This document shows, piece after piece, positions 16,090 through 33,839 of a stretch of 64,000 nt of DNA (positions are counted from its first letter, which is position 1; every line of letters begins with the position of its first letter). Both the position numbers and the translations under genes were made by a program. Source of the stretch: Flavobacterium galactosidilyticum (GTDB taxonomy: Bacteria > Bacteroidota > Bacteroidia > Flavobacteriales > Flavobacteriaceae); assembly GCF_020911945.1 (NCBI RefSeq), contig NZ_CP087135.1, positions 3,197,501 to 3,261,500 of the forward strand, written 5' to 3'. The notes below the pieces were generated by a model. The model did no database searches. It was not told where the DNA came from and saw only the letters and a list, made by a program, of their open reading frames with translations.

Positions 16090-16611
16090 ATGATTAATAA
16101 AAATAGCATTACAATTCACAGCGATTTACTCCTTGCAAAAGAACATCTTTACGAAATCTGTAATTTTGAGTGGACGAATCTGCAAAAGGATAAAGAAAGC
16201 GCAGAATATGGAGCTCATTCTTTTCAAGTAAATAATCAATCTGTATTATTTCGTTCTGCTAAAATCACTCCAACTAAAATAGGACAATTTGTAACTTTAT
16301 GGAAGAGAATTGACAATGGCCCAATTCAACCTTTCGATGTTTCTGACGGCATTAATCTATTTATTATTAGCACTAGAAAAGACAATCGTCTTGGACAATT
16401 TATTTTCCCAAAATCAGTCCTTCATGATAAAGGGATTATTTCAACAAATAACATAGGAGGAAAACGAGCAATTCGCGTCTATCCGCCTTGGGATGAAACT
16501 CTAAATAAGCAAGCTCAAAAAACGCAACAATGGCAATTGGATTATTTTTTAGAAATTCCGATAGACAAACCAATCGACAAGGAACGCGCAAAAATGCTAT
16601 ATGATTTATAG
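16090..16611 (+). CDS. mepB: MepB family protein
   Basis: A 173-residue cytoplasmic protein matching the MepB family (named from the mepRAB locus of Staphylococcus aureus, where mepA is a multidrug efflux pump and mepB has no established function). Recognisable family blocks are SAEYGAHSFQVNNQSVLFRSAKITPTKIGQFVTLW, IISTRKDNRLGQFIFPKSVL and GGKRAIRVYPPWD. No mepA or mepR is nearby, so the drug-resistance context does not carry over. The last 6 bases overlap the end of the convergent trmH gene. It lies at the edge of a decayed strip and may be accessory. Confidence 0.8.
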   Translation: MINKNSITIHSDLLLAKEHLYEICNFEWTNLQKDKESAEYGAHSFQVNNQSVLFRSAKITPTKIGQFVTLWKRIDNGPIQPFDVSDGINLFIISTRKDNRLGQFIFPKSVLHDKGIISTNNIGGKRAIRVYPPWDETLNKQAQKTQQWQLDYFLEIPIDKPIDKERAKMLYDL

Positions 16612-17277
16612 AACTAATTTAGGATTATCCAAAAAATAACGCTCTTCGATTCTTTTGATATCTTTGATAGACTTTTTAGCCCAATCTAATCTTTTTTCTA
16701 AAATTTCATCTTTGGATAAATGCCAATCAATATTGGAATTGCGCAATCGATTCGTCAAGTTTTGAATAAGAATTGCAGCAGAAACGGAAATATTCAAACT
16801 TTCGGTAAAACCGACCATTGGGATTTTTAGAAAACCATCAGCACGATTCATAATTTCTTCTGATAAACCGTCTCTTTCAGTTCCAAAAAATAAAGCGCTT
16901 GGTTTACTAATATCAAAATCATCCATCAGGCAATCGCCTTCATGAGGAGTAGTGGCAATGATTTGGTAGCCTTTATCCTTTAAAGTATCTACACAATTCG
17001 TAATACTATCGAAAGCATTAATATCTACCCATTTCTGAGCGCCCATAGCAATTTCCTTATCAATTCTTTTGCCATAACGCTGCTCGATCACATTCAATTC
17101 TTGAATCCCAAAAACTTCACAACTACGCATAACCGCACTGGTATTATGCATCTGGAAAATATCTTCGACAACAATGGTGAAATGCTTGGTTCTATTTTCC
17201 AATACTTTTAGGAATTTTTCTTTACGGTTGTCAGTCAGTATATTTTCAAGAAAATTAAGGTAAGCGGTATCGACCAT
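16606..17277 (-). CDS. trmH: tRNA (Gm18) 2'-O-methyltransferase, SpoU/TrmH family
   Basis: A SPOUT-fold RNA methyltransferase predicted to methylate the ribose of G18 in tRNA with SAM. The knot motifs are visible: NTSAVMRSCEVFGI, FFGTERDGLSEEIM and IPMVGFTESLNISVSAAILIQNL. The C-terminal helix with LDWAKKSI matches TrmH. The frame opens at a TTG (17298), but that codon overlaps a -7 box (TATTTTTG, 17303-17296), so the ATG at 17277 is chosen, giving 223 residues. The TrmH assignment over other SpoU members rests on length and the C-terminal extension. Confidence 0.85.
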   Translation of the reverse strand: MVDTAYLNFLENILTDNRKEKFLKVLENRTKHFTIVVEDIFQMHNTSAVMRSCEVFGIQELNVIEQRYGKRIDKEIAMGAQKWVDINAFDSITNCVDTLKDKGYQIIATTPHEGDCLMDDFDISKPSALFFGTERDGLSEEIMNRADGFLKIPMVGFTESLNISVSAAILIQNLTNRLRNSNIDWHLSKDEILEKRLDWAKKSIKDIKRIEERYFLDNPKLVL

Positions 17278-17295
17278 TTTATATTGTTTTGTTGG

Positions 17296-17303
17296 CAAAA
17301 ATA
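17296..17303 (-). promoter_or_regulatory. -7 box of trmH
   Basis: Minus-strand TATTTTTG matches TAnnTTTG, 19 bases before the ATG. A -33 TTG is not at the standard distance. Confidence 0.5.
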
Positions 17304-17359: not shown

Positions 17360-17382
17360 TTAGCCACCAATTCACTAATTTT
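17360..17382. repeat. Left arm of a split palindrome
   Basis: TTAGCCACCAATTCAC and the next seven bases (TAATTTT) are complementary, with one mismatch in 23, to 21977-21999 on the far side of the element. Joined together they would form a long stem with a loop of about 15 bases between trmH and cobB. Similar GCCAC...GTGGC palindromes are common between flavobacterial genes. Confidence 0.75.
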
Positions 17383-17687: not shown

Positions 17688-18861
17688 ATGAGAACGACTA
17701 AAAAATCAACGTTTAAAGTACTGTTCTACCTTAAAAAGAACGCCCCAAAGAAAAACGGAAAAGTTACGGTTATGTGCAGGATTACCGTAAACGGCAAACA
17801 ATCTGCATTCAGCACCAAGTTGGATATTTCCGCAACAAATTGGGATTTGAAGTACGGCAGGGTTTTAGGCAAGAGCCGAGAAGCCCAGGAGGTAAACAGC
17901 AAACTTGACAAAATCCTTCAGGTATTGACGAATGCTATTCTAAAATTCTGAAGAATGAGGGGCTGTAAACAGTGCTAAACTTAAAAACGCCTTTCTCGGT
18001 ATGGAAAGCGGAGAACTTACCTTTTTCAAGTTCTATGAACAGTTCCTTTCCGATTATGAGAAAAAAGTAAACAGCGGACTTCGGGAAAATGGTACACGCA
18101 GTAAATACAAAATACTTCTAAAACACCTGCGCAATTTTGCACTGACAAAATACGGTTACTCTGACTTATCATTCAATGACCTTACATCTGATTTTGTGCA
18201 GGACTTTGATTATTACCCGCGTGACGACCAAAGTTTGACACACAACACTATTTGGCTGTATATGATTGAATTTACCACACTTTGCCGATTAGCAATGAGC
18301 AGAAAGCATCTTGCTTTCAATCCGTTCAGTGAGTATAAGAATACCAAAAAAGACAAAGACAGAGGTTATTTGCTAAGGAATGAATTGGAACAGCTCGTAA
18401 CGTTCAACTGCGAGAAAAAGAAAGACGAATTGGTTAAAGATTCGTTTGTTTTCAGTTGCTTTACAGGGCTTTCTTATTCAGATATGAAAGGTCTAAAAAA
18501 CAGTAATATTCAAGATTTCTTTGACGGTAACCAGTGGATTATTGTACGCAGAAAGAAAACGGCAACATCATCAAACGTGATGCTCTTGGATATTCCAAAA
18601 ATGATTATTGAGAAATATGCAGGGTTCTCAAAGGAGGGAAAGGTATTTCCCGTACCATCAAATACAGTTTGTAATGACAGCCTAAAGCGAATATCCGAAC
18701 AAATCGACTGCTTGAAAGAAAAGAAAGTAACCTTTCATTTGGCTCGTCATACGTTTTGTCTTGCTCGGAGCGATTTCAGTGCAAGTGCAATGGTGTTGAG
18801 TAACTCTTTGTCCACGTATTGTTTTGTCATACGTGCAAAGTGCAAAATGTTGTGTGAGTAA
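17688..18861 (+). pseudogene. Broken tyrosine recombinase (Bacteroidota integrase)
   Basis: The ATG at 17688 opens an Arm-type DNA-binding domain (FKVLFYLKKNAPKKNGKVTVMCRITVNGK). The frame stops at 17951. Reading on with two single-base deletions restored (near 17936 and 17960) continues smoothly (SKILKNEG, then SAKLKNAFLGMESGELTFFKFYEQF). The core domain follows, with CFTGLSYSDMKGLKN (Ser where classical integrases have Arg I, as in IntDOT-like enzymes) and HLARHTF. After that, at about 18756, homology stops: the final conserved block and the nucleophilic Tyr are lost. It therefore cannot mobilise the element. It looks richer in G+C than the cargo downstream. Confidence 0.9.
18748..18830 (-). 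pseudogene. Head fragment of an XRE-type regulator gene
   Basis: The minus strand from the ATG at 18830 reads MTKQYVDKELLNTIALALKS, then LRARQNV and a stop at the junction with the integrase. This looks like the first helices of an XRE helix-turn-helix regulator (pattern LALRLKELREEKGLTQ). The rest is missing. The fragment faces the truncated integrase, which suggests one internal deletion removed the 3' ends of two facing genes. Assignment rests on only 27 residues. Confidence 0.45.
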
Positions 18862-18889
18862 ATAATTACATATTTGCCATTTTAATTTA

Positions 18890-18897: not shown

Positions 18898-18962
18898 AGG
18901 GTATTAAAAAACGGGCAAGGCGAAAACCAAATAGAGTAGGCAAAATAAAAAACTATAAAACT

Positions 18963-19265
18963 ATGAACATATTAAAAATTGTAAACGGTAAGTTAGAATT
19001 AAGAAAATCAAATGGTTCACTAATTCGGATTATACAAACATCAGGTGTTGTAAATGCCGACATTAAAAATGACGGCAGTTTGATTGTTATAACTAACGAT
19101 AAAGGACAAGTTATTTTGCGGAAAGAAAATGCTGCTTTAGTTCGCACTATCTCTACAAGTAATAATACTAATGCAAAATTTAACGGAAACGATATCTTAT
19201 TAACAAAAAGCAATGGTAAATTAGAAGTGAGAAAAGAAAACGGAAGTTTAATAAGAACAATGTAA
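18963..19265 (+). CDS. Small beta-repeat protein, first gene of cargo operon
   Basis: A 100-residue protein made of about two and a half repeats of 37-39 residues. The repeat core is NGKLELRKSNGSLIRI (8-23), KGQVILRKENAALVRT (47-62) and NGKLEVRKENGSLIRT (84-99). Between cores come short strands such as NDGSLIVIT and GNDILLTKS. Alternating hydrophobic residues predict beta-hairpins, like blades of a small propeller or roll. There is no signal peptide, Cys or catalytic motif. The nuclease gene starts 4 bases after its stop, so the two are probably translated together; a binding or regulatory role towards the nuclease is inferred. I do not recognise a named family. Confidence 0.75.
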   Translation: MNILKIVNGKLELRKSNGSLIRIIQTSGVVNADIKNDGSLIVITNDKGQVILRKENAALVRTISTSNNTNAKFNGNDILLTKSNGKLEVRKENGSLIRTM

Positions 19266-19269
19266 ATAT

Positions 19270-20385
19270 ATGGTTGAGAAAAACTTATCACAATTATTAG
19301 CTAAAATTACTTCCACAATTAAAGTTTATGAAAAACATGCTGAACTTTCTGGAGAAAATTTCAATATTTTCTCCATAATGGGAATGGAATCTGATGAAGT
19401 TCGAACACATTCTGCCGTAATTGGAGAGTTGTTAAATCCAAAAGGAAGTCATTCATTAGGAAGTAAACCTTTGGAATTGTTTTTAAATCAAATTTCATTT
19501 TTGCAAAATTTAATTTTAGATTGTAATTCATCAATTTGTCAGAAAGAAGTACATATTGGAAAAATTAATGAGGATAAAACAGAAGGAGGAAGGATTGATC
19601 TAATTGTAAAAGATAATGGAGGTGTAAAATTGGTGATTGAAAATAAAATTTATGCCGCTGAACAAAAAAATCAATTAAAGAGGTATAAAGAAAAATACAC
19701 TAATGCAAAAGTTCTGTATTTAACTTTAGATGGATTGGATAGTAAAGGGGATTTTAATGAATATGATATAATTTCTTATCAAAATCATATTTTAAATTGG
19801 ATTGAAGCTTGTGCAAAAGAAGCTTTTGATAAACCAATGGTGAGAGAAGTTTTAAACCAATATGCATATTTAATAAGAAAGTTAACGAATCAATCAACTA
19901 ATGTGGAAATGAAAGATGAAATACAAAAGATAATTAAAGATTACTATACAGAGTCTGCCGAAATTTATAAAAATTTTGTCGATGTAAGGAATAGCTTTGT
20001 TAAAGAAGCTTTTGATGAAATTAAAAACAGAGGAAATCTTCTTGGCAAGTGGAATATTGAATTTGATATATTAAATATTTGGAGTTCTAATACTTCACAA
20101 GCTTTACTTTTTTCTGATATAAAAGATTCTACAAATTTTTATTATTTGAGATACGAATATTCATCTTCAAAATTATTTTTAGGAATCGTCCCAAGAACAT
20201 TAAAGAAAAGCGGTAAACGTTCGATTCAAAGAGAAGAAATACGTTTTTTAAATGACGTTGACTTTGTTACAGAATATTTAAATTTAAAGATGAAAGCTAT
20301 AGATAATGTTATTAAAGTCATACAGAATTATATCGAAAATAATATATCAACATATAGTCCTCATCATATAAACGAGAAAGAATGA
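19270..20385 (+). CDS. PD-(D/E)XK nuclease superfamily protein (PDDEXK_4-like)
   Basis: A 371-residue cytoplasmic protein. The N-terminal half carries the fold's active-site series: E43/H47 in SDEVRTHSAVIGELLNP, D110 in GGRIDLIV and E124-N-K126 in KLVIENKI. AAEQKNQLKRY (129-139) follows, a Q-x(3-5)-Y pattern common after the ExK motif. This predicts a metal-dependent nuclease, and all core residues look intact. The C-terminal half (about 200-371) is helical then beta-rich, with no domain I can name. It sits between the repeat protein and a secreted protein, overlapping the latter by ATGA. A role in defence or element maintenance is inference from context. Confidence 0.8.
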   Translation: MVEKNLSQLLAKITSTIKVYEKHAELSGENFNIFSIMGMESDEVRTHSAVIGELLNPKGSHSLGSKPLELFLNQISFLQNLILDCNSSICQKEVHIGKINEDKTEGGRIDLIVKDNGGVKLVIENKIYAAEQKNQLKRYKEKYTNAKVLYLTLDGLDSKGDFNEYDIISYQNHILNWIEACAKEAFDKPMVREVLNQYAYLIRKLTNQSTNVEMKDEIQKIIKDYYTESAEIYKNFVDVRNSFVKEAFDEIKNRGNLLGKWNIEFDILNIWSSNTSQALLFSDIKDSTNFYYLRYEYSSSKLFLGIVPRTLKKSGKRSIQREEIRFLNDVDFVTEYLNLKMKAIDNVIKVIQNYIENNISTYSPHHINEKE

Positions 20386-21734
20386 AAAAAATATTTACAA
20401 TAATTGCAATTACGATATCTGCCTTAGGGAACGCACAAATTGAAGAAGCTATAGAAAAAATTACATTTAACAAAGAATATTTAGTTGATTTTAAAAGCAA
20501 AGAATTAGCAGTTACTAAAGACACCACAATTGTTAAATTGTCAAAGACACCAGAAATAACGAGTTTAGAATTACAATTATCACGTATAGAAGAGTCAATA
20601 AATAAGCCGTTTGACTTTAAACAATATATGAAAAATGGAGAGCTTAAAATTCCTCTACCTCAATTTAGGCGACCTTACTATTCTGAAAAAACAATTTACA
20701 AGGCTAAATATGATTTTTCAAAGTATAGGGATTCACTAAAAACACAAGTTATAAGCAAACTAAATAAATATTTGGAAGATCGAAAAAATAATTCATACTT
20801 AATAGTTTCGGTTGAGAACGATCTTTCACAAATTGGTTTTACATTCAGTAGTACAACTACTCAACGCTCAAGGAGTAGTACTTCATACACAGCTGGATTT
20901 ACATCCTATAAAGTGGTTGTAGAGTCATCAAAATTTTCAAGTGACAAACCAAGCAAAAAAGAAGTTCAAGATTTAATAACTCAATTAACTGAATATCAAA
21001 TTGAATATCCAGTTAAATTAATAGAACCTACTGCTACTGAAATTGAATATACTAATATCAAGTCTAAACTAGAAAAAGAAATAGCAAAAAATTCACGTAA
21101 TGTAATTGATCAAGTGATTGATAAGTCTTTCAATATAGAAACACTATATGGAAAAACATTTGTATATGCATATCTTGATCCCTATAAAATTTACGACAAA
21201 TCAAATGGAAAAAGTTTAAAATTAACTGAATCAGCAATAGTACTCAATAGGCATATGAATCAGCATAGAGTAGCTGCGGATATTGAAAAAGCAAAATCTC
21301 TTGGTTATAATATACAAGGGAATACAATTGTTTCAAAATCAGGACGTGTTTACAATTTAGTAATGAATTCATTAAATTATTTAATTGAGAATCCTGACTA
21401 TTTCAGTAAAATTGATTTGGCAGTTAAAAATTATTTTGATAAAAAGAAAACTGCAAATAGCTATAATACCCAATTTGAGAAATATATTAGACTTTACAGA
21501 ATAAATATTTTGAGAGGAATGAATAAAGCTGATATCAACGCTTGGCATACACTAACATTAAAAGCAAGAAAATTACAATTTGAAATTGGAAAATTAAAAG
21601 AAGAATTGTTTCAGAGTTATGGACTAATTTATCCAAGGTCAACCCCAGAACATGACAATATTGATACTACTTATGTTGATATTTTTTTATCAAATGTATT
21701 GTATTCATTGAATGCATTATCAATTCAGGAATAA
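20382..21734 (+). CDS. Secreted protein of unknown function, third cargo gene
   Basis: A 450-residue protein with a clear signal peptide (MKKIFTIIAITISALGNAQ, cleavage after about 19). The mature part is lysine-rich. It has a beta-rich stretch at about 140-185 containing a Ser/Thr/Arg-rich run (FSSTTTQRSRSSTSYT), followed by helical segments. There is no lipobox, no late membrane segment and no C-terminal sorting domain. No family was recognised. The start overlaps the nuclease stop (ATGA), so it is translationally coupled. An exported product behind a nuclease gene is an odd pairing. Confidence 0.75.
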   Translation: MKKIFTIIAITISALGNAQIEEAIEKITFNKEYLVDFKSKELAVTKDTTIVKLSKTPEITSLELQLSRIEESINKPFDFKQYMKNGELKIPLPQFRRPYYSEKTIYKAKYDFSKYRDSLKTQVISKLNKYLEDRKNNSYLIVSVENDLSQIGFTFSSTTTQRSRSSTSYTAGFTSYKVVVESSKFSSDKPSKKEVQDLITQLTEYQIEYPVKLIEPTATEIEYTNIKSKLEKEIAKNSRNVIDQVIDKSFNIETLYGKTFVYAYLDPYKIYDKSNGKSLKLTESAIVLNRHMNQHRVAADIEKAKSLGYNIQGNTIVSKSGRVYNLVMNSLNYLIENPDYFSKIDLAVKNYFDKKKTANSYNTQFEKYIRLYRINILRGMNKADINAWHTLTLKARKLQFEIGKLKEELFQSYGLIYPRSTPEHDNIDTTYVDIFLSNVLYSLNALSIQE

Positions 21735-21792
21735 GAACATAGTGTACTTTAATAACTAGATGGCTCGGATTTATAGTATGTAGACAAACGTT

Positions 21793-21812
21793 AGCGCAGG
21801 CATTTGCCTGTG
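21793..21812. repeat. Small GC-rich hairpin after the cargo operon
   Basis: GCGCAGGC-ATTT-GCCTGTGC, one G-U pair. It is preceded by GACAAACGTT, a 10-base word that also occurs at about 15768-15777. It could be part of a recombination site or simply a stem; there is no T-tract. Confidence 0.5.
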
Positions 21813-21835
21813 CCCACAAAGAGTAGCAAATACAA

Positions 21836-21874
21836 TAAAAAAAGTTGTAGTCAAAAAAAGCTACAACTTTTTTG
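21836..21874. terminator. Terminator of the cargo operon
   Basis: Stem AAAAAAAGTTGTAG paired with CTACAACTTTTTT around a 10-base loop, with T-runs on both strands. Confidence 0.85.
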
Positions 21875-21957
21875 TTTATTTTTAAAATAAAAAACATTTA
21901 GAAATCAAGTCGTATTAAGTCTTAATTTTCTTAATACCTAAATGATTCAAAACGAGA

Positions 21958-21979
21958 TTTTATATTTTACAATTTGAAA
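21958..21979. other. Putative attR (22-bp direct repeat)
   Basis: Partner of 17379-17400, same orientation, one mismatch. It abuts the right arm of the split palindrome. Confidence 0.65.
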
Positions 21980-21999
21980 ATTGGTGAATTGGTGGCTAA
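21977..21999. repeat. Right arm of the split palindrome
   Basis: AAAATTGGTGAATTGGTGG followed by CTAA is the reverse complement (one mismatch) of 17360-17382. It lies 11 bases before the cobB start. Confidence 0.75.
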
Positions 22000-22009
22000 A
22001 AATATAAAC

Positions 22010-22702
22010 ATGAAAAAGAAATTAGTAGTTTTAACGGGCGCGGGAATCAGTGCAGAAAGTGGCATAAAAACTTTTCGAGACGGCGACGGACTTTGGGAAG
22101 GTCATAACGTGATGGATGTAGCTACGCCTGAAGGTTGGCATAAAAATCCAGCTTTAGTACTTGATTTTTATAACCAGAGAAGAAGACAACTTAAAGAGGC
22201 CAAACCCAATTTAGGACATGAAATTCTGGCTGAATTAGAAAAAGATTTCGAGGTGCATATTATCACACAAAATGTTGATGATTTACACGAACGAGCTGGT
22301 AGCACGAATGTTTTGCACCTACATGGCGAATTATTAAAAGTGCGTAGTGTACGTAATCTGAATCATATTTTAGATTGGCAGGAAGATTTGAACTTTGGAG
22401 ATCTTGACGACGAAAACAATCAGTTGCGACCTCACATTGTTTGGTTTGGAGAGGAAGTTCCTGCGCTTGACCAAGCGATACAAATTACAGAAACTGCTGA
22501 TTATTTTGCTGTTATTGGAACGTCACTACAAGTATATCCTGCAGCTGGATTAATTGATTTTACCTCTAGAGAAACACCGCTTTTTTACATTGACCCAAAA
22601 CCTATAAAAATTCCAAATCTTAGAAATCCATTAGAAATCATTCCAGAAGTGGCCTCCAAAGGTGTTGAAATCATGAGAAATAAGTTGCTTTCATTTCTAT
22701 AA
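22010..22702 (+). CDS. cobB: Sirtuin-type NAD-dependent deacylase without zinc cysteines
   Basis: The ATG at 22010 gives 231 residues; an upstream in-frame TTG falls inside the repeat arm and is rejected. Sirtuin motifs are GAGISAESGIKTFR (10-23), TQNVDDLHERAGS (86-98) and the catalytic H105 in LHLHGEL. Y54-N-Q-R57 is the YxxR signature of class III enzymes, which prefer succinyl or malonyl lysine. The whole protein contains no cysteine, so the usual Cys4 zinc site is absent; its place is taken by a short acidic loop (about 118-138). It uses NAD+ to remove acyl groups from lysines in the cytoplasm. The split palindrome sits directly upstream. Confidence 0.88.
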   Translation: MKKKLVVLTGAGISAESGIKTFRDGDGLWEGHNVMDVATPEGWHKNPALVLDFYNQRRRQLKEAKPNLGHEILAELEKDFEVHIITQNVDDLHERAGSTNVLHLHGELLKVRSVRNLNHILDWQEDLNFGDLDDENNQLRPHIVWFGEEVPALDQAIQITETADYFAVIGTSLQVYPAAGLIDFTSRETPLFYIDPKPIKIPNLRNPLEIIPEVASKGVEIMRNKLLSFL

Positions 22703-33476: not shown

Positions 33477-33669
33477 ATATTTTCTTGGTACTGAAATTAA
33501 GTGTTGCTAATATACGAAGTAATATTGTTTTTTGATTTCTGATTCATGATTAACTATTTTTGCTTGCAGATTTTAGAATAAGTTTTTTTTATTGAAATGG
33601 CTATTGACATTCCCATTGCTATTTACATTGATTTTCTTGAAAAGTTCTTATAAAAATAAAACGCTCTAT

Positions 33670-33750
33670 ACTAGCCGTGATTGAAGCGGCATCCCTTGCT
33701 GATTGTGTGAGGAACGACACAATAAGCGAGGATACAGCGAAAAGCAGGTT
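33670..33750. repeat. Flavobacterial intergenic hairpin element
   Basis: Within a 360-base gap there is a conserved-looking phrase, CTAGCCGTGATTGAAGCGGC ... GGATACAGCGAAAAGCAGG, enclosing a compound stem: ATCCCTTGCT/AGCGAGGAT outside and ATTGTGT/ACACAAT inside. I remember variants of this phrase recurring between flavobacterial genes. It has no long ORF. It may be a small structured RNA or a REP-like mobile repeat. The rest of the gap (33480-33669, 33751-33839) shows nothing clear. Confidence 0.6.
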
Positions 33751-33839
33751 CACACTCACTTTTGAATGAAAATGTATGTGCTCCTAAAAAAAAACCGCTA
33801 CTTTGTAACAAAATCTACTATTAGATTACTAACGTATAT

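Follow-up and report, generated by a model that had tools for sequence, protein, structure and literature searches.

An IceA2-like propeller gene directly precedes a candidate defence nuclease beside an integrase remnant in Flavobacterium galactosidilyticum

Layout of the insert

The window, the whole 64,000-nt stretch of F. galactosidilyticum DNA that was analysed, carries three open reading frames (ORF1 to ORF3) and the remains of an integrase gene between an RNA methyltransferase gene and a sirtuin gene. The features of the locus are as follows.

16606..17298, minus strand: SpoU/TrmH-type RNA methyltransferase, left flanking gene (PF00588, 1e-33)
17360..17382, plus strand: inverted repeat of 23 nt, left arm, pairing with 21977-21999 at 96% complementarity and close to the insert edge
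17688..17951, plus strand: integrase remnant, Arm DNA-binding domain (PF17293, 4.6e-17, at 17688-17948); frame broken after it
18001..18861, plus strand: integrase remnant, SAM-like and partial catalytic domain (PF13102, 2.1e-16); C-terminus lost
18910..18942, plus strand: RNA leader with a degenerate pseudoknot of DUF805b type; its end is 20 nt from the ORF1 start codon
18963..19265, plus strand: ORF1, IceA2-like three-bladed beta-propeller fragment, 100 aa
19270..20385, plus strand: ORF2, PD-(D/E)XK nuclease, PDDEXK_4 / PDC-S26, 371 aa (PF14281, PDC-S26)
20382..21734, plus strand: ORF3, secreted protein of 450 aa, no family assigned (no library gave an E-value below 0.01)
21789..21878, plus strand: dispersed palindromic repeat of REP/RAYT type, containing the hairpin 21838-21873
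21977..21999, plus strand: right arm of the inverted repeat, near the other insert edge
22010..22702, plus strand: sirtuin, right flanking gene (PF02146, 2.5e-42)

The two flanking genes lie 4.7 kb apart in the window. In a sirtuin search, 52 of 61 genus genomes gave a match (E <= 1e-60); the 25 loci retrieved comprise the window's own and 24 relatives. In 15 of the 24 relatives the methyltransferase gene was found about 40-700 nt from the sirtuin gene, with no insert between them (1.5-kb flanks; 11 of the 15 spacings listed); in the remaining 9 it was absent from the fetched 1.5-kb flank. This difference in spacing indicates an insert of about 4-4.7 kb in the window.

The integrase remnant confirmed the view of the first-pass annotation that the element is decayed. 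Its Arm domain and its SAM-like and catalytic domains are in different frames, and the catalytic match to PF00589 (E 3.8e-4, 20.7 bits, below the cut-off of 27.1) spans model positions 3-138 of 172. The fragment at 18001..18861 also matched the phrog_1 integrase at 1e-17. No further mobility gene was recognised in the ORF list of the insert. GC content was 0.27-0.29 in the cargo, compared with 0.38 in the integrase fragment and 0.35-0.38 in three host genes, and the cargo and the integrase may therefore differ in origin or time of arrival.

The three cargo ORFs are on the same strand, and their spacing was as first described: a 4-nt gap (19266-19269) separates ORF1 from ORF2, and ORF2 and ORF3 share an ATGA overlap. 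Chance ORF length was assessed on the plus strand in 500 Markov-1 simulations of the segment, in which the longest open frame reached 120 codons (mean 65). ORF2 and ORF3 are thus far beyond chance. The length of ORF1 (100 codons) is by itself within the chance range; however, homologues of ORF1 exist. A search of the 160 nt 5' of each ORF found no Bacteroidota-type promoter at the spacing used.

A single terminator had been proposed to close the cargo. The terminator-like hairpin at 21838-21873 exists, but its position is some 100 nt beyond the end of ORF3 and within a dispersed repeat of RAYT type; it therefore neither marks a module nor provides evidence of an operon end. It may still stop transcription. 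The region 21735-21885 folds at a z of -3.6. Matches to the repeat were found in 19 of 150 genus genomes, its own included, many of them partial. Like REP/RAYT elements, the repeat recurs as inverted pairs, and in one relative (G151) a Y1_Tnp transposase ORF is flanked by copies in inverted orientation; unlike in that relative, the ORF list places no transposase gene beside the window copy.

The RNA leader and the three cargo genes

Directly 5' of ORF1 lies the leader element CGGGCAAGGCGAAAACCAAATAGAGTAGGCA. In a 101-nt search, the DUF805b RNA model (RF02914) matched positions 18917-18942 at E 0.005, its 17.5 bits falling short of the gathering score of 35.6. The same model scored above gathering before the ORF1 relatives L034/L054, L048 and L056, and did not reach gathering in L051. 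The element before ORF1 and some of its relatives is the same as the DUF805b leader; the window copy differs in being degenerate, with 4 of 6 conserved pseudoknot pairs kept and 2 of 6 broken. Among 34 distinct copies, pair 11-31 was broken in the window copy only. The window leader is either degenerate or functioning differently.

A leader pattern was written from the window and its relatives; the reversed control pattern gave no matches. At up to 3 mismatches, the element was present in 19 of 53 genus genomes, its own included, and its core occurred without mismatch in 18 viral contigs, some of which are almost the same sequence. In 39 of 40 listed loci the leader is followed, 15-27 nt on, by the start of an ORF of 40 codons or more, and the genes were of varied kinds. 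The 34 distinct copies form two interleaved 3-bp helices, with 96.6% of 204 cells paired and 25 double-change cells; none of 500 shuffles was as high on either measure. Taken alone, neither the number of covarying pairs nor that of pair types was exceptional: 63 and 304 of the 500 shuffles, respectively, were as high. The 31-nt leader was also considered as the end mark of an ORF1 cassette, and this was rejected since it precedes many unrelated genes and is a leader listed in Rfam. A match of the leader to the Rfam preQ1 model (E 6.2) was at chance level.

ORF1 had been described as a small beta-repeat protein, which holds as far as it goes; it is more fully an IceA2-like propeller. The structure model of ORF1 is a three-bladed propeller fragment and superposed on Helicobacter pylori IceA2 (PF05862, 7xfp) over 93 residues at 1.3 Å, with 34% identity. 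Against solved structures, the ORF1 profile matched designed propellers (2.8e-9) and IceA2 (6.9e-5). Because its score against PF05862 (22.1 bits) falls below the gathering cut-off of 25, ORF1 is termed IceA2-like rather than IceA2; the PF05862 domain is present in 18 of 29 ORF1 homologues. The Pfam matches of ORF1 included no antitoxin family. The family is rare: among 150 genus genomes and among 395 phylum genomes, only two of each set have a member, its own genome included in each count.

ORF2 matched PF14281 at 3.6e-28 (99.2 bits, above the curated cut-off of 22.3) and the PADLOC model PDC-S26 at 3e-98, with residues 1-345 aligned to model positions 1-355 of 401. The S in PDC-S26 stands for single-gene candidates. 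The active-site residues that were first read from the window alone proved invariant: the GGRxD ... IENK motif (D110, E124-x-K126) is kept across 28 aligned sequences. ORF2 is therefore a near whole-length member of PDC-S26 with an intact D...ExK motif, differing from that model's setting in that an IceA2-like gene precedes it. The family is patchily distributed, being found in 9 of 299 family genomes (E <= 1e-20) and, by profile, in 17 of 395 class genomes (E <= 1e-30), its own included both times.

For ORF3, the original description as exported and unrecognised was borne out. The N-terminus has a signal-peptide-like stretch ending in NAQ (judged by eye), and past this start no 19-residue window exceeded 1.1 on the hydropathy scale. 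One full-length homologue, 92% identical, was found among 7,998 candidates scored. It lies on a 3,572-nt contig, as does a nuclease homologue (P0002) 98% identical to ORF2. The two homologues most likely represent the same locus in a near relative and for that reason are not an independent occurrence. This near-identical pair was the only pairing of ORF3 and ORF2 seen elsewhere. Residues 332-413 of ORF3 resemble part of a secreted 305-aa protein of another Flavobacterium genome (37% over 86 aa, an ORF of L002), scoring 42.7 bits where 1,000 shuffles gave no more than 26.9.

Genomic neighbours of the nuclease and propeller families

Distinct nuclease loci other than the window numbered 29 (24 genome, 3 plasmid and 2 viral; flanks of 1.5 kb in 24 and 5-6 kb in 5). 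In at least 5 of the 24 genome loci, the nuclease has a type I restriction-modification (R-M) subunit no more than 1.5 kb away: HsdS in L099, L102, L103 and L120, and HsdM in L100. A KAP NTPase also lies within that distance in L099 and L100. The neighbour family scan covered six of the 24 loci plus L130; one neighbour in L098 was scanned, with no result. Of the 22 plasmids with a match, three were read, and in all three a WYL gene adjoins the nuclease. The company kept by these ORF2 relatives is that of a defence gene, and a defence role for ORF2 as an anti-phage candidate is well supported. Of the defence, competition or addiction module first proposed, the defence part can be retained for ORF2 as a candidate (PDC-S26 membership, R-M and KAP neighbours), but competition and addiction gained no specific support.

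The proposal that the three genes form one system was not supported by this comparison. Neither profile nor pairwise searches found an ORF1 relative in the read flanks of the 29 nuclease loci, and no ORF3 homologue was found in them, so that the three families occurred together in 0 of 29. Outside the window, a close IceA2-like neighbour of the nuclease (by profile) was seen only in L055, which was found from the ORF1 side. ORF1 and ORF3 had no match in the plasmid collection or in viral contigs, and ORF3 had none in phage records.

ORF1-family loci were collected from genome contigs (37) and supplemented with L034 to give 38, of which 30 remained after removal of eight near-duplicates (L034, L041, L042, L043, L056, L057, L062 and L067). 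L034, which is in G170, a genome of the same genus, and L054, a Flavobacterium record, have identical sequence beside ORF1. Restriction or defence genes lay within 1 kb of the ORF1 relative in 10 of the 30 distinct loci: GmrSD (L039, L054, L060), HsdR (L046, L047), KAP (L053, L064), PvuRts1I-SRA (L035), a secreted Endonuclease_NS (L052) and PDC-S26 (L055). In L055, the one locus of 30 with a close ORF2 homologue adjacent to the ORF1 relative, PDC-S26 is directly upstream and a SIR2-like gene (named by eye) is downstream. More distant PDC-S26 nucleases lay within about 2.5 kb of ORF1 relatives in L051 and L053. Neighbours were assigned to loci by pairwise matches, in L052 partly by eye; several of the neighbours were initially named from inspection by eye, and only part of these were then scanned.

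With eight defence proteins as queries, 10 of 72 near, 2 of 94 middle and 0 of 82 far proteins matched; one of the two middle matches was the remainder of L060's own GmrSD. The far set of 82 proteins also contains R-M and nuclease genes (at least 2 Methylase_S, 1 PDDEXK_3 and 1 Endonuclea_NS_2); the Pfam and PADLOC tallies on neighbour alignments cover the first 25 families, and families with a single protein beyond these do not appear in them. Housekeeping genes adjoin some ORF1 relatives (e.g. L036, L049). Because the defence families were chosen after looking, and because of the far-set R-M genes and the housekeeping neighbours, the 10 of 30 should be taken as a lead, without the weight of a calibrated test. 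The suggested link to integrases gained no support: a single-sequence search found no relative of the integrase fragment in the 29 nuclease loci or the ORF1-family loci.

Of 31 ORF1 relatives, 6 (L035, L038, L039, L051, L054 and L060) have a terminator-like hairpin on their 3' side, compared with 20 of 244 control ORFs. These counts suggest separate transcription of the ORF1 relative in some loci; as a rule for the family, a 3' hairpin was rejected, the excess being weak. The window ORF1 has no such hairpin downstream.

Proteins of 99-100 aa with beta repeats (L099, L100, L053, L130) were considered as ORF1 relatives and rejected, with a profile-profile probability of 0.2 (three aligned). These proteins, beside PDC-S26, KAP or GmrSD, resemble ORF1 only in size, repeat appearance and position. 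In L130, a member of the same second beta-repeat family as in L099 and L100 precedes GmrSD.

Possible roles of the cargo

At roughly even confidence, we propose that the locus is an acquired anti-mobile-element cargo in which ORF2 is the effector, ORF1 an accessory, scaffold or sensor, and ORF3 a passenger, preceded by a degenerate DUF805b leader. The cargo would have been gained horizontally and left in the chromosome beside the integrase remnant. ORF2 would act as a cytoplasmic PD-(D/E)XK nuclease that cuts DNA, its target most likely being invading DNA or, once triggered, the host's own; PDC-S26 is itself a candidate defence model only. The ORF1 propeller fragment, whose fold is predicted, probably self-associates to complete a ring, and its operon-like spacing is consistent with a partnership with the nuclease translated right behind it. 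ORF3 would be exported, and it is probably a passenger that is transcribed along with the other two genes instead of being conserved with them.

A less probable account, though one we take seriously, is that ORF2 is a stand-alone defence nuclease and that ORF1 is an independent mobile small gene which landed upstream of it, with no cooperation between them. The PDC-S26 matches are to single-protein models, the neighbours of ORF1 relatives are very varied and include housekeeping genes, the read flanks of the 29 other nuclease loci hold no ORF1 relative by profile, and 6 of 31 ORF1 relatives are followed by a hairpin. The 4-nt gap and shared strand in the window argue against such independence, as do the restriction genes of unrelated families adjacent to ORF1 relatives in 10 of 30 loci, PDC-S26 in L055 among them. 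That the three genes constitute one system, with secreted ORF3 sensing or acting in the periplasm, appears improbable. It would account for the ATGA overlap and the open frames, and the 98% and 92% homologues of ORF2 and ORF3, being on contigs of equal length (3,572 nt), indicate that the pair was probably kept in a second population; however, ORF3 homologues are absent from the 29 nuclease loci, the plasmid and phage collections and the viral contigs, and no nuclease was recognised by eye in the 3.2-kb locus of G056 around the partial relative of ORF3.

It is very unlikely that ORF2 is a self-toxic nuclease neutralised by ORF1 as in a toxin-antitoxin pair: a small gene with tight spacing directly 5' of the nuclease is the arrangement expected of one, but the ORF1 model is a propeller fragment matching IceA2, no antitoxin family is among its Pfam matches, and the nuclease occurs in 29 loci with no ORF1 relative by profile. 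Slightly less probable still is that the three genes are neutral remnants at an early stage of decay. The broken integrase and the loss of 2 of 6 leader pairs are compatible with this, whereas the 371- and 450-codon frames are open and the nuclease motif is kept.

The comparison with H. pylori places ORF1 in a wider setting. In the available excerpt of PMC13340068, iceA is still termed a controversial virulence factor, the gene adjoins the hpyIM methyltransferase gene, iceA1 is said to resemble NlaIII, and no mechanism is given for IceA2. The ORF1 model shares the IceA2 fold, and the iceA/hpyIM adjacency fits the pattern of the ORF1 family beside restriction genes; ORF1 differs in being in Bacteroidota and in preceding a nuclease, the H. 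pylori neighbour being a methyltransferase. More speculatively, IceA2-like three-bladed propellers could be accessory parts, acting as ring-forming scaffolds or triggers, that several unrelated nuclease defence systems share in Bacteroidota and, by descent, at the H. pylori R-M locus; IceA2, a disputed virulence marker, would then be anti-phage at root. We regard this broader claim as tentative and rather doubtful.

Literature searches for PDC-S26 and DUF805b by name, and for PDDEXK_4 with defense, returned no report. IceA2 with crystal structure gave no match with either term in its title or abstract, and IceA2 with phage, Bacteroidota or propeller gave none that named IceA2 among the matches listed. 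The parts of the locus are of known kinds; their arrangement, in which an IceA2-like candidate partner accompanies a PDC-S26 nuclease, appears to be without report in the literature searched. An IceA2-like protein encoded directly before an intact candidate defence nuclease, in a family found beside unrelated restriction genes, would give IceA2 a concrete, testable role, and the candidate PDC-S26 gains a possible partner in ORF1. The structured DUF805b leader is now also shown before genes of the ORF1 kind.

Small beta-repeat genes ahead of KAP or GmrSD

A second family of beta-repeat proteins, 99-100 aa long, showed no relationship to ORF1, the IceA2-like propeller-fragment protein, by profile. 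Four members were located in loci fetched from elsewhere, L099 and L100 being nuclease-side (PDDEXK_4) loci and L053 an ORF1-family locus:

L099 743-1042: second-family member
L100 2727-3026: second-family member
L053 6576-6875: second-family member
L130 1492-1794: second-family member

Directly behind these genes lies a gene for a KAP NTPase or GmrSD, a placement that parallels the IceA2-like arrangement. L131 holds a fifth member, with neither of these genes as its neighbor.

DUF805b-type leaders and the 'KGMxVEV' family

Leaders of the DUF805b type (pseudoknot RNA, RF02914) were found upstream of genes in 18 contigs from the viral collection (L154-L171), some of them near-identical, and phages therefore probably use this leader as well. 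In two further loci, the leader is followed by a member of a small-protein family, 'KGMxVEV' (66-73 aa); a similar protein, judged by eye, directly precedes the PDDEXK_4 nuclease of L115.

L052 5596-5630 (-): 'KGMxVEV' family/leader site
L148 766 (+): 'KGMxVEV' family/leader site
L115 1277-1477 (+): 'KGMxVEV'-like protein

ORF1 relatives and the integrase end

In four ORF1-family loci (L035, L039, L054 and L060), hairpins with T-rich tails separate the ORF1 relative from the restriction gene downstream. P0147, a metagenomic protein, joins an integrase C-terminus in frame to an ORF1-like N-terminal half, either a recombination product or an assembly chimera.

Past the break in the window's decayed integrase, the other strand carries an open stretch that, judged by eye, seems to encode protein; it is perhaps a piece of another mobile gene.

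18756-18876 (-): open stretch, HNILHFARMTKQYVDKELLNTIALALKSLRA

Other RNAs in the window

33669-33755 (+): Flavo-1 RNA (RF01705), 53.3 bits, exceeding the gathering score
1-1500 (-): 16S rRNA gene, truncated by the window's left edge
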